Part shown: in pieces, positions 1 to 48,069 of the stretch | How positions within the stretch are numbered: position 1 is the first letter of the stretch | Layout of the letters: every line of letters begins with the position of its first letter | DNA from: a virus | Reading direction: 5' to 3' (one strand) | Length of the DNA stretch: 64,000 nt | Virus record (IMG/VR): IMGVR_UViG_3300017971_000201 | Coordinates: 62,001-126,000 of that record | The notes under the pieces: model-generated | What the model was told of the DNA's origin: nothing | Databases searched by the model: none | What the model saw: only the letters and a program-made list of their open reading frames with translations | Translations under genes and position numbers: made by a program

Positions 1-142
1 ACGTGGAGAGGCTGTTCTTGCAGTCTGGGTTGGAGAGACCGGGGCAACCTGGCGAGCAGTCACAGATCGGCCAGCCGCCAGGATTGTAAGTCTCCATGGA
101 AGTCAGAGCACCGTCCGACAGGTATCCGAAGAAGTGCCTCAT
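1..142 (-). CDS. Partial Cys-rich protein, distal to tail-fibre genes (runs off window)
   Basis: Only the first 47 codons are visible. The ATG overlaps the stop of the preceding fibre gene (ATGA), so it is translationally coupled and belongs to the same late operon. The visible part has four cysteines within about 20 residues (CDC, GC and DC), separated by Pro and Gly, which could bind a metal or form a knot-like loop. No family is recognised. Position at the end of a fibre cluster suggests a fibre accessory or chaperone, but that is inference from place only. Confidence 0.6.
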   Translation of the reverse strand, partial: MRHFFGYLSDGALTSMETYNPGGWPICDCSPGCPGLSNPDCKNSLST

Positions 143-1983
143 TCGCAGGCCCCCAACCACAGTTTGAAGTAGAGATTGCTGGCGGAGCCGATCAGCTGCC
201 CGTCGATCCTGCCAGTACTAGATCCGACGCCGCTGAGATGGTCGATCCTGATCTCCCTACCGGGCTGCATTCCGCGTAGCCCCGCCAAACCGCCCCATAC
301 GTGACGGATGGTGGAGATCGCCGGGGACACGAGACTGAAGTCGACCGTGTAGGACTTGGAGATCGTAGGCCCGGGGCCGACCCAGACGGAGTCCTTCTCG
401 AATTCGTTGCAGGCTGTGAACCCGAGCCCGGCGTCCCCCTTCGGCCCGGTCGGGCCTGGGTTCGAGTCGGCGCCGCTCGGCCCCTTGGCGCCGAGCACAG
501 AGACCTCGGCCACGCCCAGACCAGAGTCCGACGCCCCTCCGTAGACGAAGTTGAGCGTATGGAAGTCGTTACCGATCGATGTCCCATTGTTCTCCACCGA
601 ACGGAGGGACCCGACCTTGCCGCCTGGAGCTGCGAGCAGCGCCTTGCCGGGGGTAGTCTCGGTCGCATCAGGGACAGGTGGCAGCTCGCCATTTCGCTTG
701 AGGAACAGCCACCCATCGAAGATCGACTTGTCGGCGCGATAGAAGGCCGGAAAGAGGAACCTGATCGTACTATCGGCTGGCATCGAGTAGGCGCCGCCGG
801 CGACCGTGAAGAAGGCCAGATTGAACCGGCGGTAGGGCGGATTGAGGACCGGAACAGCCGGCCCGCCCGGCGTGCCCCCCTGAAAGGCGGCCCCCAGGGT
901 AGCGTTGTTCGCGTCGGCGATCTCAGCGACCTCGTACCATCTGTCGTCACCAGGCGGGCTCGTCGCCTTCACCAGGTCGCCCTCCTGGATGGAGGCGAAT
1001 GGGCTCCCAGTACCATCGACGGTCGTCGTGCCGTTGTAGAAGTTGATCGTGCCGGAGACGGCCCCAGAGGAGAACGAGAGCTTTCCGTACACCGGCTCTT
1101 GGGTAGTCGGGCTAACGACCCGCTGTCCGGTCGCGCCGTCCACGACGAAGCACAGGTTCCGTAGTGTGTCGGTGGGATCGGTGAGCGCCCCCTCGACCGA
1201 CTCCGTCCCTCCGGGCTCGATGTCGAGCAGCGGCGCCAGCTCGCGATTCGTGGCTGCGAACGAGCCGGACACGTTCGTCGAGGTCCCGACCACGCCGGCC
1301 ACGAGATTCCCGACAATGAGACTGAGCCGGTAGCCGAGCCGGTCGGCCATCGACGAGCCGATCAGGTCAGCCTCGATACGATCGGCCAGGCTCGCGTGGG
1401 GCGCGGGCGTCGTGTGTGTCGACAGCCGCGCATCCGTCACCTCGGCCCTCGTCGAGTTGCCGATCTCCAGGTCGGTGATCGCATCATCAGGCATGAACCC
1501 GGCCACCTGGCCTTCGAAGGCGATCGGAGGTTGGCGCGTGTCCGGGAAGTCGTAGGTGACCACGAGGTCGTCGCCGACCTTGTCCACCTTGCAGATCAGA
1601 ACCTCTTGCGGGCCGGAGGCGGTTGTAGATCTCGTCAGGATCTTGGCCTGAGTCGCGATCTTGTCCCGATAATCCGCTCGGGCGATCACGTAGACCGGGA
1701 ACGCGGTGTGGCCGTTGAAGTTCAGGTCCACGTCAGCTGCCGTGAACAGGTCGACGTTCATCTTCCTGGTTTGAGAGCCGACCGACAGCTTGGAGAAGTT
1801 GTGATTCGGGTCGACCGCCAGCACCAGGATGTCGGACCCGGGCGTCGTCTGGGGGATGAATCCCAGGTACACGCCGCGCGGCAGGGCGAGAGCGCGAGCA
1901 TTGACTGCCTCGCCGACGAGCGGCTCCTGGAAGCGAGCCTTCACGAACTCTTCGGTAAAGGCGTATGTCGGGAAGCTCGTCAT
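139..1983 (-). CDS. Tail fibre/adhesin-like protein with collagen-like segment (third of three paralogues)
   Basis: 614 residues. It shares with the next two upstream genes an N-terminal motif (P-R-G-V-Y-x-G-F-x-P, near residues 35-43), a middle motif NVSGSF, and a collagen-like Gly-X-Y run close to the C-terminus (GPTGPKGDAG). The end is a short beta-rich tip. Gly-X-Y runs in phage proteins usually form trimeric stalks of fibres, so a trimeric receptor-binding or adhesin-like fibre is the likely role. The start codon overlaps the previous stop (TAATG). The three tandem genes differ most in the middle and at the tip, as expected for fibres that diversify for host range. Exact receptor and fold are unknown. 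Confidence 0.7.
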   Translation of the reverse strand: MTSFPTYAFTEEFVKARFQEPLVGEAVNARALALPRGVYLGFIPQTTPGSDILVLAVDPNHNFSKLSVGSQTRKMNVDLFTAADVDLNFNGHTAFPVYVIARADYRDKIATQAKILTRSTTASGPQEVLICKVDKVGDDLVVTYDFPDTRQPPIAFEGQVAGFMPDDAITDLEIGNSTRAEVTDARLSTHTTPAPHASLADRIEADLIGSSMADRLGYRLSLIVGNLVAGVVGTSTNVSGSFAATNRELAPLLDIEPGGTESVEGALTDPTDTLRNLCFVVDGATGQRVVSPTTQEPVYGKLSFSSGAVSGTINFYNGTTTVDGTGSPFASIQEGDLVKATSPPGDDRWYEVAEIADANNATLGAAFQGGTPGGPAVPVLNPPYRRFNLAFFTVAGGAYSMPADSTIRFLFPAFYRADKSIFDGWLFLKRNGELPPVPDATETTPGKALLAAPGGKVGSLRSVENNGTSIGNDFHTLNFVYGGASDSGLGVAEVSVLGAKGPSGADSNPGPTGPKGDAGLGFTACNEFEKDSVWVGPGPTISKSYTVDFSLVSPAISTIRHVWGGLAGLRGMQPGREIRIDHLSGVGSSTGRIDGQLIGSASNLYFKLWLGACE

Positions 1984-3959
1984 TACGCACCAGCCGAGGA
2001 GAGGAACAGCTTGAGCCTGGTGTCTCCGGCGATAGTGATGTCAATTTGGCCGGTGGTCGTTCCCGAGCCGGTGATGTCGATGATCTCGATCTCATCGAAA
2101 GGGGCGCTGTAGAAGTTCTGCTCGTCCCACGAGGCAAAGCCGCCGCAAAGGGCTCTGATGGTATGACCCATGCCAGCCGAGAAGCTGTGAGAGTTCAGCG
2201 GACCCGGGTTGTAGCCAGAGGACGGGTACCAACCACTCCCAGCCCACGGTGTGATCTGGGTGAAGCCATCGCCAATTGGACCTGTTGGTCCGGGAGCGCC
2301 TGTGACACCCGGGTCACCAGTCGGCCCAGTCTGGCCGATCTCGCCGACCGTCACCTCGCCATCGCCGGTCTCGACGACCTGTCCGCCGCCGTCGCGGAAG
2401 TTGACCGTGTGGAACGGGCCGCCGGCGAGAGGAGAGCCGGCATTCTGGATGTTGATCGCTCCCAGCTTCGCGCCCGCCTGAGACAAGAGGACGCGGCCCG
2501 GCTGCGTGGTAGAGGCGTCCGGCAGCGGCGGCTTGCCGCCTGGCATGTGGTGGATGAGGCGCTGATCGGCCATGCCGGTCTCAAGCGGAACGAAGGCCGG
2601 GAAAATGAACCGGATGGTTGTCGCCGCATCGGCCTCCGCATCGACCTCAACGCCGAGGATCTTCTTCAGCTCCAGTGTCCAGCGACGCGATGTCAGGCCG
2701 CCCGACGAGGCGTTCGGCCCCTGGTACTCGTCGGCCAGCTCGATCAGCTCGTCCGAGAAGATCGTCGCGATCTCGTAGTAGAGCCCATCGGCTCCGAGTA
2801 TCGTGTCGCCCTCCTCCAGCTCGCCCTGCGCCTGACCGCCGGCGATCGTGACGGTCTTCTGTGCGTTCGAGAAGGTGTAAACACCGGTGAGCGTTGCCTC
2901 TACAGGACCGGTCACACGACCGAAGATGACACGCCTGGTGTCGATTCCATCGAGTAGCCGATAGCCGGTCGTGGCGTCCAGCACGATCGAGATGTTGCGC
3001 ACGTCGTCGTTGGGCGACGAGATGGCCCCGCGCGCGCCCTCGGCTCCCTGCCCGTCGAGGGTGATCTCGGGCTTGTGATCCCGGTTGACCTCCGAGAACG
3101 AGCCGGAGACGTTGACCGACGTGTCGCCGGCCTCGATCAGGTAGTCGTTGCTTCGCAGCACCACCAGGACGAAGCCGAGCCTGCCGCCCATCGATGGAGC
3201 GCTCTGGTCGGCCTCGAGCCGCTCGGAGAGCGTGTCGTAGACGGTGGAGTCCAGCCCGATCCGAGCTGCGGCCATCTCGTTGACGATCTCGACAGCGGTC
3301 TCAAGATCTTCGACTGAGCCGGCGGGCATGAAGCCGAATTCGACGCCGTCGTAGGCCAGCGGCGCGTCCCGCAGCATGTCCAAAGGGTGCGTGTGGCCGG
3401 ACGCCGTCTGTACGACGCCGGCCACGACCGTGTGGAAGTGGCCATCATCGGTAGAGGAGGTACCGTTGAGACTGGCGTCCAACTCGACCGTGTGGGTGTG
3501 GCCGAAGCGCAACACGAGCCTGTAGGAGATCGTCATCGCCCCGGCGTTTCCGGTCACGACACAGATCAGCGTCTCGTCGAAGGCCACCGGTCCAGCTGAC
3601 CTGGTGATGATCTCGGCCGATGTCTGCGCTGACCCGTCGGCTGTGTACGAAGCTCGGGCGATCACGTGGATCGGGAAGTCACCGGGGGGCTGTCCGGTGA
3701 AGTCCAGGGAGACGTTCGAGTCCAGCGCGACGGTCAAGTTGCCAGGGTCGTCTTGTGAGGCCGTCTTGAGGAGTGAGAACCCCTCGGCAGGGTCGGTCAC
3801 CAGGTTGAGCACCGGCGAGGCCACGGTCGGCGTGAAGCCGACGTAGACGCCCTTCGGCATCCCGCCGAACTTCTGGACCAGAGGGGCCGACTGCCACTGG
3901 TCGGAGTAACCGAGCAGTGCGTTGCCCAGGGTGAAGTACTCGACGGGGTAGATGGCCAT
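1983..3959 (-). CDS. Tail fibre/adhesin-like protein with collagen-like segment and HxH motifs
   Basis: 658 residues, second of three tandem paralogues. N-terminal motif P-K-G-V-Y-V-G-F-T-P is near residue 36. Around residues 150-195 there are three HxH motifs (HTH, HFH, HTH); in T4 gp37 and other trimeric fibres HxH motifs coordinate metal ions along the three-fold axis, which supports a trimeric stalk. A Gly-X-Y stretch (TGPTGDPGVTGAPGPTGPIG) lies near the C-terminus, followed by a short tip. It overlaps its upstream neighbour as TGATG, so translation is coupled. Role inferred: receptor-binding or decorating fibre. Confidence 0.7.
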   Translation of the reverse strand: MAIYPVEYFTLGNALLGYSDQWQSAPLVQKFGGMPKGVYVGFTPTVASPVLNLVTDPAEGFSLLKTASQDDPGNLTVALDSNVSLDFTGQPPGDFPIHVIARASYTADGSAQTSAEIITRSAGPVAFDETLICVVTGNAGAMTISYRLVLRFGHTHTVELDASLNGTSSTDDGHFHTVVAGVVQTASGHTHPLDMLRDAPLAYDGVEFGFMPAGSVEDLETAVEIVNEMAAARIGLDSTVYDTLSERLEADQSAPSMGGRLGFVLVVLRSNDYLIEAGDTSVNVSGSFSEVNRDHKPEITLDGQGAEGARGAISSPNDDVRNISIVLDATTGYRLLDGIDTRRVIFGRVTGPVEATLTGVYTFSNAQKTVTIAGGQAQGELEEGDTILGADGLYYEIATIFSDELIELADEYQGPNASSGGLTSRRWTLELKKILGVEVDAEADAATTIRFIFPAFVPLETGMADQRLIHHMPGGKPPLPDASTTQPGRVLLSQAGAKLGAINIQNAGSPLAGGPFHTVNFRDGGGQVVETGDGEVTVGEIGQTGPTGDPGVTGAPGPTGPIGDGFTQITPWAGSGWYPSSGYNPGPLNSHSFSAGMGHTIRALCGGFASWDEQNFYSAPFDEIEIIDITGSGTTTGQIDITIAGDTRLKLFLSSAGA

Positions 3960-6151
3960 CAGTCAAGTCCTCCAGCGTTGAAGAGGAATCTGATGCCGGC
4001 GACGTTTGGCGAACCAAGGGGTACATAGCCGGTCACACGGAGCGTCGTGCTCGAGATCTTCTCGAGTAGCACGATCTCGAATCGGTCATCCCCGCTGTTG
4101 TGGTTCGGGTTCCACTTGGAGATGCCAGTGGTAGCGAACAAGATGTCCGACATGCTGTGAGTAGCACCGAAGTCCCACGTCTTGGTCCAGGTGGTACCTG
4201 GCAGGTATGGAGAGGTTCCTTGCGGAATGTTCGGCGTCTCCGGGAGCGCGTAGGTGCCATCGCCGGACGACTTCTCGAATCCCGGCCCCTGGGGTCCCTT
4301 CGATCCTGTCGGTCCTGTCGGACCGCCGGACGCGTCTGGTCCGGTTGGCCCCGTCGGTCCTCTCTGCGTGATGTTGGCGACGCCGCCTCCGGTGGTGTAA
4401 GCGCCGAGGAAATTGAGCGTGTGGTAGTAGCCATCCGGCAGCGGGTTGCCGGTGTCCTCGATCGAGTTGATCGCCCCGGCCTTTCCGTCCACGGCGTTCG
4501 GGGCCACAAGCGCCCGGCCCGACAGCGATGTGGTCGCATCGATGACAGGCTCGGCGTCGGCATTCTTGAAGAGGTAGGGCAGATAGTCGAACTGGGACAC
4601 CTGCATCGTATCCCAAACCGGAAAGAAGAAACGAAGAGTAGGCCCTCCCTCCAGCGCCAATGCGGTTTCAGTAGCGATGCCGGCGCGAACGTAGAAGGAC
4701 AGCGTGAACCGCCGCCGCAGCAATCCGGCCGAAGCGCCGGAGGTAGCGGCAGATGTCGAGAGCTGGATCTCGGTGGGCACCGTGTCATAGGCGGCGACCA
4801 CCGTAGAGCCCGCCCCGAGATTGACCGTAACTCCGGTCATTGCCCCGGTCGCGTAGCTGATCGTCCCGGGAGCTGTCAACGCGGTGCTCGTGAGGTTCCC
4901 GGCTCCGTCATCGATGATCGTATCTGCGCCAACACCGTCCACGACGACGTCGATCACGACGGTTCCCGGAGTAATCGCTGTTGGGTTCGAGAGCGGGGTC
5001 GTCGAAAGATCGTGAGGAGCCGGCGCACCGCCGATCGTCGCGAGCAGCTCGCCGGTCACAGACTGAGGAATCGCGGCGACCTCGTAGTAGTCATCGACCG
5101 TGTCCTGCACGATGTCGCCGACTTCAACCTGGTTCGGGAAGTCTGTGCCAGCTCCGCTGACACGATCGCTCGTGGCCACGAAGGTGAGCGTGCCGGTCAG
5201 CGCCACCTCGGAGAGCGTCAGCCGCCCATAGGCCGCCACTCTGGAGGCGTTCTGGATCCTCCGCTCGGTTGTGGTGTCGATGACCATACAGACGTTGCGC
5301 TCGGAGTCCGACAGCGCACCGGCGGGGACCACAGCTGGGAGCGTCCCACCGGTGATCGCGCCATCTCGCTCCTCGGAAGCGAACCCCTGGATGTTCTCGA
5401 CCGGCGTATTCGACCGGTAGAGGGCGGAGAAGGACCGGCTTACGTTGATGCTGCCTGTGGGGGCCGACGGCAGCGTAATGTCCTCGCTGACGATCGTCCG
5501 CAGTTCCTTCCCGAGCCGATCGGCAATGGCCGGCCCGGCGGCGTCGGCGTCGAGGCGCTCGCGCAGACTCGGGTGCGTGAATCCGGTCAGGTCGGTCCGG
5601 GCGTTCTCGACCTCCTGCACCAGCGAGACGGCCGCGATGAGATCCTCGACCGACCCAGACTGCATGAAGCCATATCCCAACGGCGCGCTGGCGTAGGCGA
5701 AGGGACTGCTCCGATCGCTCGGCTGGTCGATGGAGATCGTGTTGGCGGCCGTCACGACACCGAGTCGAATCACCGTCCGCTCGTTGATCGCTCCGACAGG
5801 CTGCGTAACGATCTGAGCCGAGAACGCGCTGCCGATTGCACCGGCCGCTGTGAGAACCACGTCAGCCGGATAGGACGAGTGACCGGTGAAGTCGAGCGTG
5901 ATCACCTCGGTTGTCACGACATCGAGCGCGACCATGGGATCATCGGACGACGTGAGCCGGGCCTGGGAGACGCCATAGACCGGGTCTGGGGCGAGGGTCA
6001 GGATGTTGTTCTCGAAGGTGGGGATGAAGCCGTAGTAGACGCCGCGCGGGATCCCGAGGAAGCTCCGGTTCGCGGCCTCGGAGACATAGCGCTCCCCATG
6101 TCGGAACTTCACGTTCTGCTTGTCGACCGTGATCGTCGGGAAGACAGCCAC
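3959..6151 (-). CDS. Tail fibre/adhesin-like protein with collagen-like segment and shared beta domain
   Basis: 730 residues from a GTG that overlaps the preceding TAG (TAGTG). A longer open frame exists upstream, but it is the antisense-like shadow of the neighbouring gene. The N-terminus carries P-R-G-V-Y-Y-G-F-I-P. The middle (coded around 4790-5020) holds a domain with IDDGAGNL and YATGAMTG signatures that is clearly like one in the tail sheath protein of this phage. A Gly-X-Y run (GPTGPTGPDASGGPTGPTG) precedes the C-terminal tip. First of three tandem paralogues; likely a trimeric fibre or adhesin. Confidence 0.7.
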   Translation of the reverse strand: MAVFPTITVDKQNVKFRHGERYVSEAANRSFLGIPRGVYYGFIPTFENNILTLAPDPVYGVSQARLTSSDDPMVALDVVTTEVITLDFTGHSSYPADVVLTAAGAIGSAFSAQIVTQPVGAINERTVIRLGVVTAANTISIDQPSDRSSPFAYASAPLGYGFMQSGSVEDLIAAVSLVQEVENARTDLTGFTHPSLRERLDADAAGPAIADRLGKELRTIVSEDITLPSAPTGSINVSRSFSALYRSNTPVENIQGFASEERDGAITGGTLPAVVPAGALSDSERNVCMVIDTTTERRIQNASRVAAYGRLTLSEVALTGTLTFVATSDRVSGAGTDFPNQVEVGDIVQDTVDDYYEVAAIPQSVTGELLATIGGAPAPHDLSTTPLSNPTAITPGTVVIDVVVDGVGADTIIDDGAGNLTSTALTAPGTISYATGAMTGVTVNLGAGSTVVAAYDTVPTEIQLSTSAATSGASAGLLRRRFTLSFYVRAGIATETALALEGGPTLRFFFPVWDTMQVSQFDYLPYLFKNADAEPVIDATTSLSGRALVAPNAVDGKAGAINSIEDTGNPLPDGYYHTLNFLGAYTTGGGVANITQRGPTGPTGPDASGGPTGPTGSKGPQGPGFEKSSGDGTYALPETPNIPQGTSPYLPGTTWTKTWDFGATHSMSDILFATTGISKWNPNHNSGDDRFEIVLLEKISSTTLRVTGYVPLGSPNVAGIRFLFNAGGLD

Positions 6152-21075: not shown

Positions 21076-22935
21076 CTACCGCGTCTTGAGCTTGCGCCGC
21101 TTCCCCTTCTTCGGCCGGATGCCCAGACCGCCGAGCACCTTCTTCTTGAGGTGCTCGGGCGCTCCAGCCAGCTGAGCCTCGAGCCACGCCTTGCCCTTTG
21201 GGTTCTCGAGCGGCTTCGCCAGGATCCGCGTGGCGAACCGGTGCATCCTCGGCTCGATCTCGGTGCGGAACTCGACGCTGCTCGTGTCGTACGTCCCCTT
21301 GTTCTCGATCTCGTAGTAGCGGTGACCGAACTTCTGCTTGTAGACCTGGGCGGCCTTCGCCACCGCCTTGTGCGAGGCGACCACATCTGCGTCAGGAACC
21401 GTCCGTCCCCGTGCTTGGTTGCGGGCGCGGGCAACGTCGAGAGGGGTGACCACCATCACCATGGAGCAGTCGTAGCCGAGGTCTTCGAGCGCCCTCTTGC
21501 CTTTCAGGATGTAGGTGGGGTTCTTGGCGGTGCCATCGACGACCATGCCGAGCCGCCCGCGCGCGAATTGCTCGCGCTGATTCATCATCGTGTACCACGA
21601 GCGGTCGTGCAGCTCCTTCCCGATCGATGGGAACTTGGGGTTGTCAGTCGGTAACTGGAAGGCCGTCTTGAGATCGATGCCCTTCTGCCGTACGCGCCAG
21701 GCGAAGATCTCGTCCATGCTCAGCGCCTTGAGCCCGAAGGCTGCGCCGAGCTGGCTGCCGAGCTTCCCGAACATCGTGCCGGCGGTGAAGCTCTTGCCCG
21801 AGTTGTGGTGGACGGCTCCCTCGGCCACGTAGTTCGCCCAGCGCGGCACGGTCAGGTCGTAGTAGACCCCCTCACCCGCTGGCTTGATCGTCCGCACTCG
21901 TTTCCACATGCTATGATAACGGCATGACGCCACAGCAGCTTGATGAGATGGAGCGCCTCTACCAAGAGGGCTGGAACTCGGTCCAGCTCGGTCTTCGCTA
22001 CGACCGAACGCCGCCGACGATCCGCTACCACCTACGGAAGCGCGGTGCGACGGTGCGCTCCCGTGGAGAGGCGAACCGGCTCCGCGCCCCGAGCGCGCGC
22101 TGTCAGGTAGACGAAGCGAAACTGCGCGAGCTTCACGGTCGGGGTCTGAGAACGAGGGAGATCGGGTCTGCTCTTGGTGTAAGCGCGGAGACTGTTCGCC
22201 GCCGCCTGCGAGACCTGGGCATCGCTCGCCACCAGCGCGGAGCGCCTGGGGAGCGGAATCGTCACTGGCAGGGGGGCCGCATCGTGGACGACGATGGCTA
22301 CGTGCTCGTCCACCGACCGGATCACCCGTTTGCGACGAAGGCCGGCTACATGCGCGAGCACCGGCTGGTGATGGAGGCGCACCTGGGTCGCTACCTTGAT
22401 CCGTCTGAGGTTGTCCACCACGCAGACAAGAACCCGCAGAACAATGCGCCGTCGAACCTGAAGCTCTACGCGACGAACGCAGAGCATCTTCGGGACGAAC
22501 AGACCGGAGTTCCGAAGAACGTGTCACCGGAAGGTCGCCGCAGGCTGCAAGCCGCTGGTCGCAAGAGTGGCGCAACTCGGAGAGCGAAAGCCAGCCGGAA
22601 GGCGTCAGGAAGCGGTGCTCGTCAGTCACGGTGACGCGCGACCCGTCCTCCAGCTCGATCTCGTGCAGCTCCGCCACACCCTTCACAAACGGCGCGTTGC
22701 ACTCGACCGGCTCGAACCCATCCGGTGTCAGTGCAAGTACGGTGATCGGCCCTCCGCGCTCGGCCAGCGCGTCTACGCGCTCCTCCAGTCCCGTACGCGG
22801 ATCGAGGATCTTCGTGTGCGGCGCGATGCAGCCCATACCGCCGCCGAGGAAGATCACCTTGAGGATGTGCGGATCGAAGACGCCTTCGTGCAGGCTCCGG
22901 GCAGCTGCCGGAACGATCCGCTCGAACAGGCACAC
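21076..22935 (-). CDS. Zeta-toxin-like P-loop kinase, interrupted by an intein in Walker A
   Basis: 619-residue precursor from a GTG at 22935, one base after the upstream stop; splicing would leave 276 residues. N-extein (35 residues) ends K-V-I-F-L-G-G-G-M-G and the C-extein begins S-G-K-S-F-T-A-G, so the intein splits the Walker A motif GGGMG|SGKS. The C-extein contains V-V-D-G-T-A-K-N-P and V-T-P-L-D-V-A-R-A-R-N-Q-A-R-G-R, as in zeta toxin/AAA-type kinases that phosphorylate small molecules. The enzyme is inactive until the intein is removed. Role in a tail operon is unknown. The long upstream in-frame extension to 23112 is a shadow of the preceding gene. Confidence 0.75.
   Translation of the reverse strand: MCLFERIVPAAARSLHEGVFDPHILKVIFLGGGMGCIAPHTKILDPRTGLEERVDALAERGGPITVLALTPDGFEPVECNAPFVKGVAELHEIELEDGSRVTVTDEHRFLTPSGWLSLSELRHSCDQRLAACGDLPVTRSSELRSVRPEDALRSSRRASGSTAHCSAGSCLRGGQPQTDQGSDPGAPPSPAGARACSRPSSQTGDPVGGRARSHRRPRCGPPASDDSAPQALRAGGERCPGLAGGGEQSPRLHQEQTRSPSFSDPDREARAVSLRLPDSARSGRGAGSPLHGSAPSHRASVGGSGSSAAFGRSEDRAGPSSSPLGRGAPSHQAAVASCRYHSMWKRVRTIKPAGEGVYYDLTVPRWANYVAEGAVHHNSGKSFTAGTMFGKLGSQLGAAFGLKALSMDEIFAWRVRQKGIDLKTAFQLPTDNPKFPSIGKELHDRSWYTMMNQREQFARGRLGMVVDGTAKNPTYILKGKRALEDLGYDCSMVMVVTPLDVARARNQARGRTVPDADVVASHKAVAKAAQVYKQKFGHRYYEIENKGTYDTSSVEFRTEIEPRMHRFATRILAKPLENPKGKAWLEAQLAGAPEHLKKKVLGGLGIRPKKGKRRKLKTR
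21912..21917 (+). promoter_or_regulatory. -10 hexamer TATGAT, leaderless-type promoter for the HNH gene
   Basis: TATGAT sits exactly 6 nt before the ATG at 21924, so transcription would start at or next to the start codon. No convincing -35 was found, and no Shine-Dalgarno exists between it and the ATG. This supports independent plus-strand expression of the HNH gene from inside the intein. Confidence 0.5.
21924..22634 (+). CDS. HNH homing endonuclease encoded antisense inside the intein
   Basis: 236 residues, complete on the strand opposite to the intein that contains it. Two helix-turn-helix-like segments at about residues 3-42 and 54-95 (the second: R-E-I-G-S-A-L-G-V-S-A-E-T-V-R-R-R-L) are followed by an HNH domain: M-R-E-H-R-L-V-M-E near residue 140, E-V-V-H-H-A-D-K-N-P near 161 and N-L-K-L-Y near 178. 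This is the usual order of phage HNH homing endonucleases with NUMOD-like DNA-binding units. The tail is basic. Its last about 20 codons are antisense to intein block B. It likely cuts intein-free kinase alleles so that the intein is copied in. Confidence 0.85.
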   Translation: MTPQQLDEMERLYQEGWNSVQLGLRYDRTPPTIRYHLRKRGATVRSRGEANRLRAPSARCQVDEAKLRELHGRGLRTREIGSALGVSAETVRRRLRDLGIARHQRGAPGERNRHWQGGRIVDDDGYVLVHRPDHPFATKAGYMREHRLVMEAHLGRYLDPSEVVHHADKNPQNNAPSNLKLYATNAEHLRDEQTGVPKNVSPEGRRRLQAAGRKSGATRRAKASRKASGSGARQSR

Positions 22936-23786: not shown

Positions 23787-24272
23787 TTACGCGGAGATGA
23801 TCTCGACCTCCAGCTCCTCGAGAGTGAGCGTCAGCTCTTGGAGCGCGACCTCGGAACCGGTAGCGTCCTTGTCGGCCATCGGCTTGACCGTGGACGGCCA
23901 GCACTCGCGCAGGCGCATGATCCGGGAGGGCGACCCGTCGATCCCGAACTCGTCGGTGATGTGGAACTCCATGATCATCAGGTCGGAGCGGTAGGTCTCC
24001 GCTGAACCGTTGATCACGTCGATGATCCACTTGTAGAAGTCGGACTCCCGCTGGACCGTGCCCTTCATCAGCTGGCACTCGCCGACGGTCTGGATGCCGG
24101 GGAACTTCCGGGTCCAGCGGTACACGCCCTCGCGGTACTCCGCCGGATCGATGCTGACCTCGGGGGTCGAGACCGTGGAGAACCCGGCGACGGGGTCGAG
24201 ATGCCCGCCGGCCGGGTCCACGACGTGGAACCTGTAGTTCAAATACGGATCTGTACTTGCAGCGCGGGCCAT
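23787..24272 (-). CDS. Tail tube protein (T4 gp19-like)
   Basis: 161 residues. Order of elements fits gp19-family tubes: N-terminal N-Y-R-F-H-V-V, then F-S-T-V-S-T-P-E-V, a D-F-Y-K-W-I segment near the middle, L-R-E-C-W-P-S and D-A-T-G-S-E-V-A-L-Q-E-L-T-L at the C-terminus. It would normally follow the sheath gene directly, but here an endonuclease gene is between them and its stop overlaps the tube ATG (TAATG). The N-terminal six residues MARAAS are identical to those of the endonuclease. Confidence 0.85.
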   Translation of the reverse strand: MARAASTDPYLNYRFHVVDPAGGHLDPVAGFSTVSTPEVSIDPAEYREGVYRWTRKFPGIQTVGECQLMKGTVQRESDFYKWIIDVINGSAETYRSDLMIMEFHITDEFGIDGSPSRIMRLRECWPSTVKPMADKDATGSEVALQELTLTLEELEVEIISA

Positions 24273-25171
24273 TAGCTCACCCTCCGTGCGTTGGTCTTGT
24301 CGAGGATACCTTGTCGATCGCGAAGCTCACGGTAGGTAAAGCCAAGCGAATTGAGCTTCCGTTCGTCCCAGATGGAGAACGGCAGGCTTGGATGGTCCTG
24401 CGTGAAGGCTTCGATCAGGCGATCCTGAGTCTTAGTCCGCCGACCCTTCACATCGATGAGGTTGACCAGCGCGCCGTCATCGTCATAGACCCAGAAATCA
24501 GGCGTGTACCTGCGAGGCTTGCCGGACCGGGTTCGCAAACTGTCGAGGTCGTAGCTGGTCACCTCGTAGATCCAGGTCAGCGCTTGCTGATCGAGCCACC
24601 AGGCCGCGAGCACCTCCCACGAGGATCGCATCAGGAACTCGCGGCCGAGCCTGTCGGTGAACGACCACTTCTTCCCGCGATGGTTGAACCCCTGCGGCCG
24701 GAGCCTGGCTCCAACCCGATGCAGCAAGAGATTGATGCCGGTAAGCGACATCCTGTAGTACTTGGCAAGCTCGGTGGTCGTGCGTCCTGCCGCATAAGCG
24801 GCGGCGATCTCGCGCTCCTTCGCGTCCGACCACCGCTTGTTCCGGTGGCCGGTCGCATCGCGCTCAACGCCAGCAGCGCGCAGCGTGTCGTAGACGCAGT
24901 CCTGCCCAACACCCAGTGCTGCCGCGATCTTAGGACCGCTCTCGCCCGATTGGTAGCGGCGTACGACCTCCGACCGCCGCTTCTTATCGAACTTGACGTG
25001 CCCCATGTTCTTCCGCAGCCGCTTGAGGCCCAGCTTCGAGGCCCGCGTCCGAACAGCCATAGGAGATCGACCTGGCAGCCGGTCAGCGCACCACGACGGA
25101 CCGTGGTCGGGGTACGAGGCGCGAAGCACCTCGTCCTCCTCCCTCGTCCATCTGGACGCTGCACGAGCCAT
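24272..25171 (-). CDS. PD-(D/E)xK homing-type endonuclease with helix-turn-helix repeats
   Basis: 299 residues. N-terminal half has three DNA-binding segments: a Myb/SANT-like one (W-T-R-E-E-D-E-V-L at residues 8-16) and two helix-turn-helix units (about 64-100 and 113-150). The C-terminal half has nuclease residues in the usual order: M-R-S-S-W-E (E186), Y-T-P-D-F-W (P224-D225) and L-I-D-V-K-G (D240-V241-K242), i.e. a PD-(D/E)xK core. Such proteins are free-standing homing endonucleases in phages. It sits between sheath and tube genes, with AGGAG upstream, and its first six residues copy those of the tube gene it displaced. Confidence 0.75.
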   Translation of the reverse strand: MARAASRWTREEDEVLRASYPDHGPSWCADRLPGRSPMAVRTRASKLGLKRLRKNMGHVKFDKKRRSEVVRRYQSGESGPKIAAALGVGQDCVYDTLRAAGVERDATGHRNKRWSDAKEREIAAAYAAGRTTTELAKYYRMSLTGINLLLHRVGARLRPQGFNHRGKKWSFTDRLGREFLMRSSWEVLAAWWLDQQALTWIYEVTSYDLDSLRTRSGKPRRYTPDFWVYDDDGALVNLIDVKGRRTKTQDRLIEAFTQDHPSLPFSIWDERKLNSLGFTYRELRDRQGILDKTNARRVS

Positions 25172-43623: not shown

Positions 43624-46600
43624 CTACTGACCGTGGAATCTTCGGGTCATCGCGAGCAGCTCCTTCCGGGAGAACTTCCCGGATGGCGGAGCGGACATGC
43701 TGCCGCCGTTGGTTCGGCGCAGCAGGCCACGGACCTCCTCGAAGAACGCGCGCCGCTCGTGCTCGCGCCTGGCGAAGCCTTTGTCGCCCTCCAACAGACG
43801 ATTGAGCTTGTCCGAGATCTCGGAGTGCCGGCGGCTCGACTCCCTGTACTTCCATTCCTCGAGACGTCGCTCGTAGTCGTAGCGCTTCCACTCCTCTGGC
43901 GTCGGTTTCTTCCCCTTGCCGACCGCCGGGGCCTTGGGCTTGGGCGACGGCTTGGGCGCCGGCTTAGGGGTTCCCTCCTCCTCCTCCGGCGGCGCTTTCT
44001 CTGGCGCCTCCTCCGGCGGAGCCTCCTCCGGCTCTTCCTCCCCGCCCGGCGGCGGGGCCTCTGGCGGCCCGCCCTGGCCGCCGCCCATCGCGTAGCTGGG
44101 CAGATCGCCGGCCTGCTCCTCCTCGGAGTCCTTCTTCTGTTGCTTCTCGATCTCCTTGATCTCCTCCTCGGAGAACTTGAGGATGTTCTCCTGGATCCAG
44201 CGGGTGCTCACCCACGGCTGAATCCGGCTCGCGTAGTCAGCTGCCGCGTTCATGGTCTCGTAGGCCGCCAGCTCCCAGATCCCCGAGGGCACGGTCATCT
44301 CGATCGTGAACTCGGGCTTCCAGGGATCGCGCACGCCGCGAGCGGCCAGGTGCGTGCGAATGACCCTCTCCCAGCCGATCTTCAGCTCGCGCTGGAGATT
44401 CAGGGTCACCCGGGCCGCGCGAACGTCGTCGTTCGACAGAATCGACTTCGACGGCGGGGCCTCGTCCTTGCCCAGGTAGGCGCGCGGGACCTTCAGTGTC
44501 GCGTGGAGCATCTGCTTGAAGTACTCGACATCATCGACGGCCTGGTAGTCCGGGCCGGAGAGGACGTCCACCCTGGCCAGCTCGCGGCCCTCGCGAACGG
44601 CGATGAAGAAGTCCTCGTCACGGGCGAGAGGGTTGTAGCGGAGATCCAGCCGGCCGGATCGGGGGTTGACCATCCGCTTCTTCTTGAGGTCCCGCTTCGC
44701 CTTCTGAAGGAATGCGCCGACCTGGTCGGACGGGATGTCGGTCGTGTCGATGTAGTAGGCGTAACGAGCTGGCGCGCGCGTGTTGTGCACCACGCACCCG
44801 TCCGCGACGAAGTTGTGCTCGTCGGCCTCGACACCGATGTCATAGATGTCATCTGTCTCGATTTCCTCGACGCCGCGAATCACCTCTGTCTTCGCCTGGG
44901 GCTTGAAGGAGACGTCCAAGCAATAGGACGTGCTGGTCGGAAGCGGCTTGCTGGAGCCTTTGATCGTTCGACCGCCCGCTCGCGTACGAGACCAAACGAA
45001 GGTGGCGACCAGCCCGAGTTGCATGGCCAGCTCGCGCACATCCTCCAACAGCTGCTTGTTGCACATCTCGAAGCGAGCGCGCTCGTAGCGCGTCTTCCTT
45101 CCCTCCTTGCGGGGCTTGATGTGTGCGTCCGCGTCGGCAAGCCCTCGGATCATGGCCAGCTTGAGCTTGGGATGCGCTCGGAAGATCCACTCCGGCAGAC
45201 GCTTGTGGTGGGCGCCGGGGACGAACCCGTTGAGCGTCATGAACTCAGCGAACTTGCCGGAAACGATCGTGTAGGCGCCTAGCCGGTGGCCGGTATCGCC
45301 GACCAGCTTGACTGGCGCATATTTCTCGAAGAGAGCCTTGTACTGCTCGTTGATGTCCTGGTGCGCCCCAAGCGCGAACCCGGTCTCGTTCTGAGCAACG
45401 TGAGCCTCAGAGTGACCTGGGCGCAGCTTATGAGTGCGGGTGGCGACGAACCCGTCCCCGAGCATGAACCCCCACCACCGCGCGAAATCCGCGTCGGCGG
45501 TTTCCGGGACCGTGATCCCTGTAACAGGAGTGCCGCGCTCACCGCCCCAGTGCTCCTCGATCTCCAGATGCTCTGGGCCGTGACCGTTGGCTTCCAGCAA
45601 CGCTACGGCAGTATCGGTCTTGAGGTCATAGTCGCCGGCGAAGAAGTCGCGTGCCCGGCAGTGATGCACACCGACCTGCTTCGCAATCTTGGGGTAGGGC
45701 ATGGTCCGCTCGACAGCCCCGACGAGTCGCGCCTTGCTGTGGAGCTGCGGCCTTTCGAGGTAGATCTCCTCCCAGTCGTCTTCGTTCTTGGAAGGGGTGA
45801 CGAACCTGTGCACGCCAGGCTCAAGGTTCTGGACCTCCACGTAGTCCAGCCGGCGGATCTGGGGAATACCCTTGCCCCGGCCGACAACCGTCTCGACCAG
45901 AACAGGGTGCGTCCTGTTGGCGAAGATCTCCCTGTGGTCGCTGAAGACGCGGAAGATCTTGTCCTGGCCGTTGTGCTTCTTGTAGACGACCTTCGTCTTC
46001 TTCAGCCGGTGATCGTTGCCCGGATCGGTGTAGGAGTAGACCTCATCTCCCTCCTGTAGATCCTTGATTGCCTTACGGCCGTCTGGCGTCCAGATCTGAG
46101 AGTCTCCGCGCAAGCAGAGCTTGTAGATCAAGACCGAGTCCTCGAGCATCACCAGCCGCTTCCAGATCCAGCGAGCGCCCTCAGCGACCGAGACGCCGTA
46201 AGGCGACCGCCGCCGCGTCGCGCGCAGGCGGAAGTGGGCAACCTGCCAGTCCTCGAACAGGGCGAGACTCCTGGGGATCTCGACGTTGCCGGCGAGCATC
46301 CGCCGCAGCTCTTGGCTGTTCGCGGTGAACTGGCCGGTGACGTCCTGCACGAAGCCGATCAGACCGCCGTCCAGACGCTCGACCCGGCGCATCGTGGGAA
46401 CCGGGAGCGTATTGGTCCCGACGATCCCGTTCTCGGTAATGAGCAGCTCGAGGTAGTCGTTGCCCATCATCCCGAGGCCGTAAGCCTGTGGCCAGATCTC
46501 GTCCTCGACCCGCAGGATCCGGTGCATCAGGTCATTGCCCAGGCCCTTGAGAGCGTCGTCCTCCGACATGACCCAGATGCAGCGGCCGTCCTTGACCGAA

Positions 46601-46866
46601 GGCTGGGTCGCGTCGTTGGCAAAGTAGTGGAAGGCGCTGTTGATGTCCGGGTACTCCTCCATCGCCTCGTAGTCGGCAAACCGATCCATGAGCGACTGGG
46701 AGACGGTGAGCAGACCGCCGATGTCCTCGCGCCCCCAGACCGTGAACATGCTCGGCACGTGGTGACGCATCGCCGCGACAGACGGAGAGTCGGCCTTGGC
46801 CCGCTCCTCCTGTGGAGCGCCGAATACGTTTCGGAGCGCCTTGACCGCCCTATCACGGAGGGCCAT
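43624..46866 (-). CDS. Portal protein (T4 gp20-like) containing an intein
   Basis: 1080-residue precursor, 635 after removal of a 445-residue intein. N-extein motifs Y-E-A-M-E-E-Y-P-D-I and M-L-E-D-S-V-L-I-Y-K-L, C-extein T-R-A-P-A-R-Y-A-Y-Y-I-D match the gp20-like portal core (family form Y-R-L-T-R-A-P-E-R-x-x-F-Y-I-D). The intein is inserted between L and T in this very conserved strand. The C-terminal quarter is a Pro/Glu-rich linker and a basic tail. Overlaps the Hint gene by 14 nt, so expression is coupled. Confidence 0.9.
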   Translation of the reverse strand: MALRDRAVKALRNVFGAPQEERAKADSPSVAAMRHHVPSMFTVWGREDIGGLLTVSQSLMDRFADYEAMEEYPDINSAFHYFANDATQPSVKDGRCIWVMSEDDALKGLGNDLMHRILRVEDEIWPQAYGLGMMGNDYLELLITENGIVGTNTLPVPTMRRVERLDGGLIGFVQDVTGQFTANSQELRRMLAGNVEIPRSLALFEDWQVAHFRLRATRRRSPYGVSVAEGARWIWKRLVMLEDSVLIYKLCLRGDSQIWTPDGRKAIKDLQEGDEVYSYTDPGNDHRLKKTKVVYKKHNGQDKIFRVFSDHREIFANRTHPVLVETVVGRGKGIPQIRRLDYVEVQNLEPGVHRFVTPSKNEDDWEEIYLERPQLHSKARLVGAVERTMPYPKIAKQVGVHHCRARDFFAGDYDLKTDTAVALLEANGHGPEHLEIEEHWGGERGTPVTGITVPETADADFARWWGFMLGDGFVATRTHKLRPGHSEAHVAQNETGFALGAHQDINEQYKALFEKYAPVKLVGDTGHRLGAYTIVSGKFAEFMTLNGFVPGAHHKRLPEWIFRAHPKLKLAMIRGLADADAHIKPRKEGRKTRYERARFEMCNKQLLEDVRELAMQLGLVATFVWSRTRAGGRTIKGSSKPLPTSTSYCLDVSFKPQAKTEVIRGVEEIETDDIYDIGVEADEHNFVADGCVVHNTRAPARYAYYIDTTDIPSDQVGAFLQKAKRDLKKKRMVNPRSGRLDLRYNPLARDEDFFIAVREGRELARVDVLSGPDYQAVDDVEYFKQMLHATLKVPRAYLGKDEAPPSKSILSNDDVRAARVTLNLQRELKIGWERVIRTHLAARGVRDPWKPEFTIEMTVPSGIWELAAYETMNAAADYASRIQPWVSTRWIQENILKFSEEEIKEIEKQQKKDSEEEQAGDLPSYAMGGGQGGPPEAPPPGGEEEPEEAPPEEAPEKAPPEEEEGTPKPAPKPSPKPKAPAVGKGKKPTPEEWKRYDYERRLEEWKYRESSRRHSEISDKLNRLLEGDKGFARREHERRAFFEEVRGLLRRTNGGSMSAPPSGKFSRKELLAMTRRFHGQ
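44782..46116 (-). mobile_element. LAGLIDADG intein in the portal (445 residues)
   Basis: Cys-1 at 46116-46114 (C-L-R-G-D-S-Q-I-W-T-P-D), final V-V-H-N at 44784-44782, Thr as +1 residue. Block B reads N-R-T-H-P-V-L-V. LAGLIDADG signatures are G-F-M-L-G-D-G-F-V and M-I-R-G-L-A-D-A-D-A-H. Blocks A, B, F and G all look intact, so it should splice. Confidence 0.9.
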
Positions 46867-47587
46867 CTAGTTCTCCAGTCTCGTCGCCGACGTCCAGGAA
46901 GATCTCGGTCGCCGAAACGCTCGAGCAGTCTTGCGGCAGGACGTCATATACATCTTCCTCTTCGATCCATGGCTCGCAACCGGCAACCTTGTGATTGCCA
47001 GGCATGATCTGTCGCTGGAGATCGAGAAGTCGATGCAGTTTGCTCCGGTTCCCCTTCCGTGGGGTACCGTCGATGTAGAGGTTGTCCGGGTGGCAGTTGT
47101 CAGGGTTGCCGTCCTTATGCTTCACCCGAAGCCCAGGAACGAGGGCATCGCCGGAGGCCCATTCATACACCATTCTGGCGACGCTCCGCCATCTTTTCCG
47201 GTCGCTCGCGCAAGCCGCGTGCTTCCAGTGATCGGTCACCTGCCTGAAGGTCGGGTAGCCGCCCTGCTTGATACGACCGAGGTAGAGCGGAACCAGGCTC
47301 GTGCACGGCTTGAGATCGGCCGCCCGAACGGTCTCGACTCTCCTCGGCTCCCAGTTGGTGAACACCAGGAAGCGCTGGTCGGCGCTGACCCGCAAGCTGC
47401 GGCCGTTGTCGAGAACGACGCGGTATGTCTGTGCGCGGGTGGGCGTGTGCGGAATGTAGACCCGGCCAGCGGCGATCTTCGCACCGTTCCAGGAGAAGAC
47501 GTAGACGGGCTCGTCGGCGTTAGCGATGCGGACGGCGGTCTGGGGACCGCTCATGGTGTGGATGATCGTGTCGCCGGCGATACTCAC
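46853..47587 (-). CDS. Free-standing Hint domain with internal HNH (degenerate)
   Basis: 244 residues from a GTG that overlaps the preceding stop (GTGA). The first 80 residues follow the Hint fold (A-G-D-T-I-I-H-T, then a block-B position reading R-V-S-A-D-Q-R-F-L-V), but the usual Cys-1, block-B Thr-x-x-His and final His-Asn are absent, so splicing is unlikely. Residues about 150-185 hold an HNH-like K-H-K-D-G-N-P-D-N-C-H-P-D-N-L-Y-I. Its stop overlaps the portal start by 14 nt. It could be a homing-type endonuclease on a Hint scaffold or a non-splicing adapter. Confidence 0.65.
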   Translation of the reverse strand: MSIAGDTIIHTMSGPQTAVRIANADEPVYVFSWNGAKIAAGRVYIPHTPTRAQTYRVVLDNGRSLRVSADQRFLVFTNWEPRRVETVRAADLKPCTSLVPLYLGRIKQGGYPTFRQVTDHWKHAACASDRKRWRSVARMVYEWASGDALVPGLRVKHKDGNPDNCHPDNLYIDGTPRKGNRSKLHRLLDLQRQIMPGNHKVAGCEPWIEEEDVYDVLPQDCSSVSATEIFLDVGDETGELDGPP

Positions 47588-48069
47588 TGCGCCTCCTCGT
47601 CTGCCGAGACGACAACTCCCTCGCAAACGAGGTTATGCGCATCGGTGGCGACGTGAAAGACTCGCGCTCTGCCAGCTGGAATGGGGTCGCCCGCAACCAT
47701 CACGTGACCGGTCGAGAAGGCTGTGAGCATGAACTGGTCGGAAACGCCAGTACCGGCGGAGGGGCTGACGATCTTGTCACCTTCCTTCAGGTCACGGGCC
47801 TCGGCGTAGCCGACCGTCGTGAGCACCTTGTACTCCGGCGTGCAGCGGATCTTGCGGAGGTTGGAGAGCAGCACCTCGACGACCTCGACCTCACCGGTCA
47901 GGCGGGGGTGCTGAGCCGCGACCTTGACGATCCGCCTCTTCTTCGTGTCGTAGGCGAGGATCTGCGGCTGCTCTCCCGTTTGCGCGAGCCTCTCGATCGG
48001 GGTCCGCGAGATGATCGAACCGTCGGCCGTGTAGATGAGAACGCCTTCAGCCAGACCCCGCTGATTCAC
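47584..48069 (-). CDS. Free-standing Hint domain protein (no endonuclease, degenerate)
   Basis: 161 residues, GTG start overlapping the preceding TAG (TAGTG). Hint features: T-A-D-G-S-I-I-S-R-T-P-I-E-R-L near the N-terminus, block B C-T-P-E-Y-K-V-L-T (His replaced by Tyr), and block F V-F-H-V-A-T-D-A-H-N-L-V-C-E-G-V-V-V-S (terminal His-Asn replaced by Val-Ser). The N-terminal nucleophile is Ala, not Cys or Ser. So the fold is kept but the splicing residues are lost. It is tandem with a second Hint gene and upstream of the portal. Confidence 0.65.
   Translation of the reverse strand: MNQRGLAEGVLIYTADGSIISRTPIERLAQTGEQPQILAYDTKKRRIVKVAAQHPRLTGEVEVVEVLLSNLRKIRCTPEYKVLTTVGYAEARDLKEGDKIVSPSAGTGVSDQFMLTAFSTGHVMVAGDPIPAGRARVFHVATDAHNLVCEGVVVSADEEAQ

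Follow-up and report, generated by a model that had tools for sequence, protein, structure and literature searches.

An intein-split kinase gene and the HNH gene opposite it

The window analysed here, i.e., the whole stretch of 64,000 nt, is part of the 159,664-bp virus record IMGVR_UViG_3300017971_000201. Its minus strand carries the precursor gene of a P-loop kinase (21076–22935), which begins with a GTG codon (22935–22933) and encodes 619 aa with the intein, or 276 aa after the predicted splicing. The intein, 343 aa in length (21802–22830, minus strand), is inserted into the Walker A motif, where it separates Gly from Ser: the 35-residue N-extein (22831–22935, minus strand) ends in GGGMG, and the C-extein (21076–21801, minus strand, stop codon included) starts with SGKS. 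The first residue of the intein is Cys1 (22828–22830), its C-terminal end reads VHHN at 21802, Ser+1 is encoded by 21801–21799, and the joined flanks give GGGMG|SGKS. The intein matches the Pfam family Intein_splicing (E-value, 9.9 × 10−9) with 35.6 bits, just below the gathering score of 35.8, a threshold that is exceeded by its relatives L016, L048, L062, L104 and L115; the match to the NCBIfam family intein_Nterm (E-value, 2.2 × 10−5) is above the family cut-off. These features bear out the original prediction of a 343-residue intein splitting the Walker A motif. The host gene had also been described as a zeta-like kinase, which holds weakly, as the matches to AAA_33 (E-value, 1.2 × 10−5) and Zeta_toxin (E-value, 0.004) both fall below gathering.

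In the AlphaFold (AF2) model of the intein, built on 44 aligned inteins, residues 1–100 and 306–343 have pLDDT values near 95, with a disordered stretch between them. The N-terminal splicing half (residues 1–100; 22531–22830, minus strand; pLDDT, about 95) includes Cys1 and the block B His72 (22615–22617), both of which are invariant, and the C-terminal half (residues 306–343; 21802–21915, minus strand; pLDDT, about 97) contains blocks F and G and ends with Asn343 (21802–21804). The linker between them (residues 101–305; 21916–22530, minus strand) is predicted to be disordered (pLDDT, about 50 or lower). Foldseek analysis revealed that the intein model matches RecA and DnaB mini-inteins (E-values down to 3.9 × 10−7, target TM up to 0.85).

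A complete gene for an HNH endonuclease of 236 aa (21924–22634, plus strand; HNH_3, E-value, 1.5 × 10−9) is found on the opposite strand, antisense to intein residues 66–303. The gene had been predicted as the reverse strand of the linker, and this is true for most of its length, although its 3′ end is antisense to splicing block B as well. The AF2 model of the HNH protein (pLDDT, 90) consists of N-terminal HTH-type helical modules, an HNH core and a C-terminal helix. The HNH_3 domain is present in 47/47 members of the family described below, HTH matches are found in part of them, and residues H146, H166, N174, N178 and H188 are invariant. I-HmuI is the best match of the HNH by profile (E-value, 0.003) and ranks second, weakly, by fold (E-value, 0.1). 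With its catalytic His and Asn residues and DNA-binding modules, the product thus appears to be an HNH (HNH_3) enzyme of the homing type. No nuclease family was detected by family search in the window precursor or in ten of its relatives, which agrees with the expectation that the intein has no endonuclease domain in its own frame. The window as a whole contains no match to an RNA family (Rfam), a group I ribozyme included, and no tRNA.

The same kinase occurs without the intein in four related contigs (L005, L006, L007 and L008), three of them at 85% identity and one at 62%; therefore, the insertion is real and sporadic, and homologues with empty sites, the search for which had been proposed, do exist. 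The occupied allele is also found in the contig IMGVR_UViG_3300028840_004198, with one difference in 12.7 kb. Two further ORFs in the vicinity of the kinase were observed. In the window, an ORF between tail genes (24272–25171, minus strand) has HTH modules and a DUF1064-like match, is not at the same place in L005, and is probably a free-standing homing-type nuclease, as judged from its domains. In L008, a GIY-YIG-like ORF (4514–5614) lies near the same kinase.

Recurrence, hosts and history of the antisense arrangement

Searches with the splicing blocks identified inteins in a strawberry-notch-like helicase (L015 and L016), in both of which the intein frame is open and faces a homologous antisense HNH gene, as well as mini-inteins of the same lineage that lack any endonuclease, in terminase-like genes (L012, 134 aa, and L013). 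Further members were obtained by HNH-guided scans of IMG/VR and GTDB. In total, 127 distinct HNH genes carry both the N and the C splicing block on the opposite strand, a label for which an open frame was not required, and in 127/127 of them a single ORF contains both blocks and reads across the HNH gene without a stop codon. By the same labelling, one block alone is found in 5 loci, three of which are open in that frame and are at or near contig ends or have a weak second block, and neither block is found in 26 loci. The count in a second scan plus cultured phages was 80/82 loci. The relative frame of HNH and intein is identical in all of the members. An arrangement that recurs in 127 distinct loci rules out a sequencing frameshift as the source of the overlap, and no homologue with this HNH clade on the strand of its intein was found, i.e., the same-strand copies that would have spoken against the prediction did not appear.

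According to Pfam, the host genes of most members encode terminases; the kinase and helicases of the SNF2 and strawberry-notch types serve as hosts as well. A strict Walker A motif is present across the splice junction in 45 of the 62 non-redundant members, most of the others being P-loop variants; the junction follows Walker A residue 4 in 22 cases and residue 7 in 22 cases. Members were found in sequenced isolates, namely Pectobacterium phages Ymer, Taid and Amona, Dickeya phage Setonix and Pseudoalteromonas phage PHS3, and in bacterial genomes (Polaromonas and Acidobacteria MAGs). The cultured phages came through the HNH, while the intein protein of L058 gave no match among cultured phages; a search of plasmids yielded partial HNH matches only. 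In Ymer (L125), the HNH gene is unannotated and the host gene is labelled as hypothetical; in PHS3 (L129), the HNH gene was likewise missed, and the annotated terminase begins after the intein and is thus truncated. These omissions are due to the antisense-HNH arrangement, which accounts for terminases being overlooked or split when such phages are annotated. One terminase gene (L021, 2791–6081, minus strand) was seen to have a second Hint-like match (Hint_2) besides its antisense-HNH intein.

As terminases are the most frequent hosts, and HNH proteins are known that assist them (cited in PMC11855218), the HNH might, instead of homing, act as a nuclease for the phage, e.g., in the packaging of its DNA, and use packaging genes as a shelter. 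This is unlikely, since the same HNH clade is also found in a kinase and in helicases, it occurs sporadically, with relatives that have the empty allele, and the HNH gene always lies within an intein at a conserved motif, as homing predicts.

The residues expected to carry out splicing are conserved throughout the family: C1, H72, D325, V328 and N343 of the intein are invariant in 44 sequences, and the +1 residue is T, S or C in 62/62 members. Together with the predicted Hint fold and the intein-free homologues of the host, they point to a class 1 intein (Hint domain). Broken or possibly split copies were also encountered. L040 has broken frames, and it accompanies an intact antisense-HNH intein (L036) on the Polaromonas CG9_12 contig CCJP01000005.1. 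In L200 (1–900), the N-terminal half of an intein ends in a stop codon, an antisense HNH gene is found just past it, and the intein frame contains 4 stops; this locus is possibly a split (fractured) or decayed form. Such a broken or split appearance would be in line with the view that the intein no longer splices in cis, so that its halves work as those of a split intein or the insert persists as a loop that does the host protein no harm, just as the ShiLan insertion in methylases is believed to be tolerated without splicing (PMC11855218). We regard this as very unlikely for the family, since C1, H72, N343 and the S, T or C at +1 have been kept, trans-splicing would not need an open frame, and an unspliced insert of 300 residues that breaks the Walker A motif should abolish ATP binding.

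On the HNH tree, the antisense label is strongly clustered (4 changes compared to a shuffled mean of 18.9), and a single clade of antisense HNHs was not rejected (p-AU, 0.889). The identical frame offset in all of the members fits one origin as well, so the antisense-HNH inteins may have arisen once. Distances between HNHs, splicing domains and exteins are correlated (Mantel r, 0.51–0.55), as is expected if these units have moved jointly, at least to some degree.

Constraints on the two strands and signals for HNH expression

The frame of the intein across the HNH gene had been predicted to be kept open by selection, and a simulation of the contexts that create stops had been suggested. In 66 non-redundant members, taken from loci with both blocks in one ORF (according to the N/C-block labelling, no two-block locus was lost thereby), this frame contains 0 stops, whereas 384.5 are expected under within-gene synonymous codon shuffling; in the 31 members with less than 50% GC, the numbers are 0 and 221.6. 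The other two antisense frames of the 66 members contain 404 and 693 stops, and free-standing HNH relatives have 126 stops compared to 151.6 expected. The codon usage of the HNH genes carries a corresponding signature. In antisense members, xTN codons followed by A end in C or T in 0/557 cases, compared to 60% before other bases, and xCT is found before A in 0/726 cases, compared to 33% before other bases; this context rule is absent in the free-standing relatives. The prediction of selection on the open frame is thereby confirmed: selection is shown to keep the amino acids of the HNH and, separately, to remove the codon choices that would put stops in the intein frame.

Taken alone, the window gene might have suggested an accident, in which a GC-rich HNH gene by chance lacks stops in one antisense frame, or an error of assembly. 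This genome is GC-rich and has many long antisense ORFs, and the same shuffling gives a P of 0.003 for the open frame of the window gene and 0.06 for L016. Chance or an assembly artefact was nevertheless rejected, and is left with next to no probability, on the basis of the stop statistics of the family, which hold in the low-GC members too, the codon-context rule, the 127/127 open loci, and, as far as assembly is concerned, the same allele in an independent contig.

Between members, the three HNH codon positions differ at 0.25, 0.20 and 0.49 of sites, respectively, and the identity is 68% for the HNH and 40% for the linker. Because differences concentrate at the HNH third positions and the HNH is the more similar of the two products, it is the HNH that has been conserved as a protein; the linker is a stop-free passenger, restricted mainly by the exclusion of stops. 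It could be argued that the linker is itself a functional domain, so that two equally constrained proteins overlap, given that the intein frame is never broken and, of the three antisense frames, yields the most hydrophilic product. However, a change at an HNH third position always alters a linker residue, which is where the differences accumulate, the linker is the less similar product, and AF2 gives it no structure; the probability of a functional linker is, therefore, very low.

A hexamer TATGAT preceded by TGC (extended −10-like; 21912–21917, plus strand) is found 6 nt upstream of the HNH ATG, and the original prediction had assigned it to the HNH gene. The position stands, but a promoter of its own is not supported for the window gene taken alone: the promoter score of the hexamer, which is without a consensus match, is not significant by itself (P = 0.29), and the window gene has no clear Shine-Dalgarno sequence. 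Enrichment was detected family-wide only, in a test in which each intein protein was held fixed and its codons were resampled: a promoter score of at least 10 of 12 upstream of the HNH start was found in 22 of the 64 members (2.8 expected), and a Shine-Dalgarno match of at least 5 of 6 was found in 31 members (9.0 expected). These promoter-like and Shine-Dalgarno-like signals sit in the C-terminal block of the intein. A −10-like hexamer is found at the same place as the window TATGAT in L018, L021, L104 and L115, as would be expected if the transcript were leaderless.

Proposed mobility and comparison with known systems

The reading that we favour, with a probability of roughly 85%, is that of a mobile intein that does not include its homing endonuclease as a domain; the enzyme would instead be encoded by an HNH gene of its own, which runs antisense to the intein and falls for the most part within the linker. 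The precursor would be translated straight through, and the antisense reading of the HNH gene would form a disordered linker of roughly 205 residues between the Hint halves. The Hint domain, given its conserved catalytic residues and predicted fold, would then excise itself and restore the Walker A loop. The HNH would be made from its own antisense transcript starting in the C-terminal block of the intein, and would bind and cut intein-free alleles at the P-loop codons, after which repair would copy the intein together with the nested gene into the cut allele. We infer from sequence that the intein splices, that the HNH gene is expressed from inside it, that empty sites are cleaved and that homing takes place; HNH enzymes may also nick one strand rather than cut both.

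We lean towards the view that the antisense-HNH inteins of phage P-loop ATPases form a class of mobile inteins in its own right, which is widespread and has so far gone unrecognised. In this class, one DNA stretch would meet three constraints at once (the HNH protein, a linker free of stops on the other strand, and signals for promoter and ribosome binding within the catalytic C-terminal block), and this HNH clade would be almost confined to it. The literature compared here offered the intron cases and ShiLan (both discussed below) as the only parallels; possible precedents in Gosselin 2025, a preprint on non-canonical inteins of actinobacteriophages, and in Gorbalenya 1998 on non-canonical inteins lie outside this comparison. 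If the reading is correct, a mobile intein can have an endonuclease that is detached from its polypeptide chain and encoded by the complementary strand, and two unrelated proteins share 500–700 bp under codon-level selection. The loci amount to a large natural collection of long overlaps between antisense genes, marked by a clear-cut codon-context signature (0/557). They also suggest that the linker of an intein can accept nearly any sequence free of stops, and they allow direct tests of how an intein endonuclease comes to be expressed independently.

In mycobacteriophages, inteins at the P-loop of terminases are a familiar finding (PMC5050341), and a canonical mobile intein of the HintN-HNH_3 type is present in the dCTP deaminase of cyanophage CL131 (PMC6293099). 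The family shares with canonical mobile inteins the Hint blocks A, B, F and G, the insertion at conserved motifs, the sporadic distribution, and the position of the endonuclease between blocks B and F. However, canonical mobile inteins have an in-frame LAGLIDADG or HNH domain, whereas in this family the intein has no nuclease domain, and the endonuclease is specified by a separate antisense gene that has a start of its own. A canonical intein is found in the window as well: the T4-like portal protein gene (43624–46866, minus strand; Portal_T4, E-value, 5 × 10−44) contains an in-frame LAGLIDADG intein (LAGLIDADG_3, Intein_splicing). Beside it, two ORFs (46853–47626 and 47584–48069, minus strand) have Hint-type domains, one of them with an in-frame HNH_3.

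Fractured genes with split inteins and free-standing endonucleases were reportedly described by Dassa in 2009. They resemble the present family in having an endonuclease gene between the intein halves, but both the intein and the host gene are split there, whereas the frame of the present inteins runs through without a break, with L200 as a possible split exception.

In the ShiLan domain, an HNH gene lies out of frame on the same strand of a phage methylase gene, and no splicing domains were detected (Arsenault 2025, PMC11855218). Both arrangements hide an HNH gene in an insertion and leave the host frame stop-free. In ShiLan, the HNH gene is in another frame of the same strand, whereas here it is on the opposite strand and accompanied by a full Hint domain, and the present family is thus not of the ShiLan type; on the HNH tree, the ShiLan HNH groups with free-standing HNHs. 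Two other loci with hidden genes were observed. In L028, the intein of a terminase-like gene (131–2332, plus strand) holds a same-strand HNH in another frame (1600–2169, plus strand), which, as read from the sequence, is a parallel hidden-gene design within a true intein. In L043, a methylase gene (1520–4486, minus strand) is open across two hidden HNH genes, one antisense (3016–3474, plus strand; 0 stops compared to 8.7 expected) and one on the same strand and out of frame (3615–4325, minus strand).

The original prediction had pointed to antisense homing endonuclease genes in group I introns, and rightly so: they are found in the nuclear introns Dsq.L2066 and Dir.S956-2, for which cleavage of the empty allele was shown (PMC9548176). 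There, too, the homing gene is antisense to a self-splicing host element, and it is separately expressed. Those introns differ in encoding a His-Cys box enzyme and residing in eukaryotic rDNA, whereas here an HNH gene is harboured by an intein. In addition, the RNA of a group I intron needs no frame through the gene, while the opposite strand in an intein must stay translatable.
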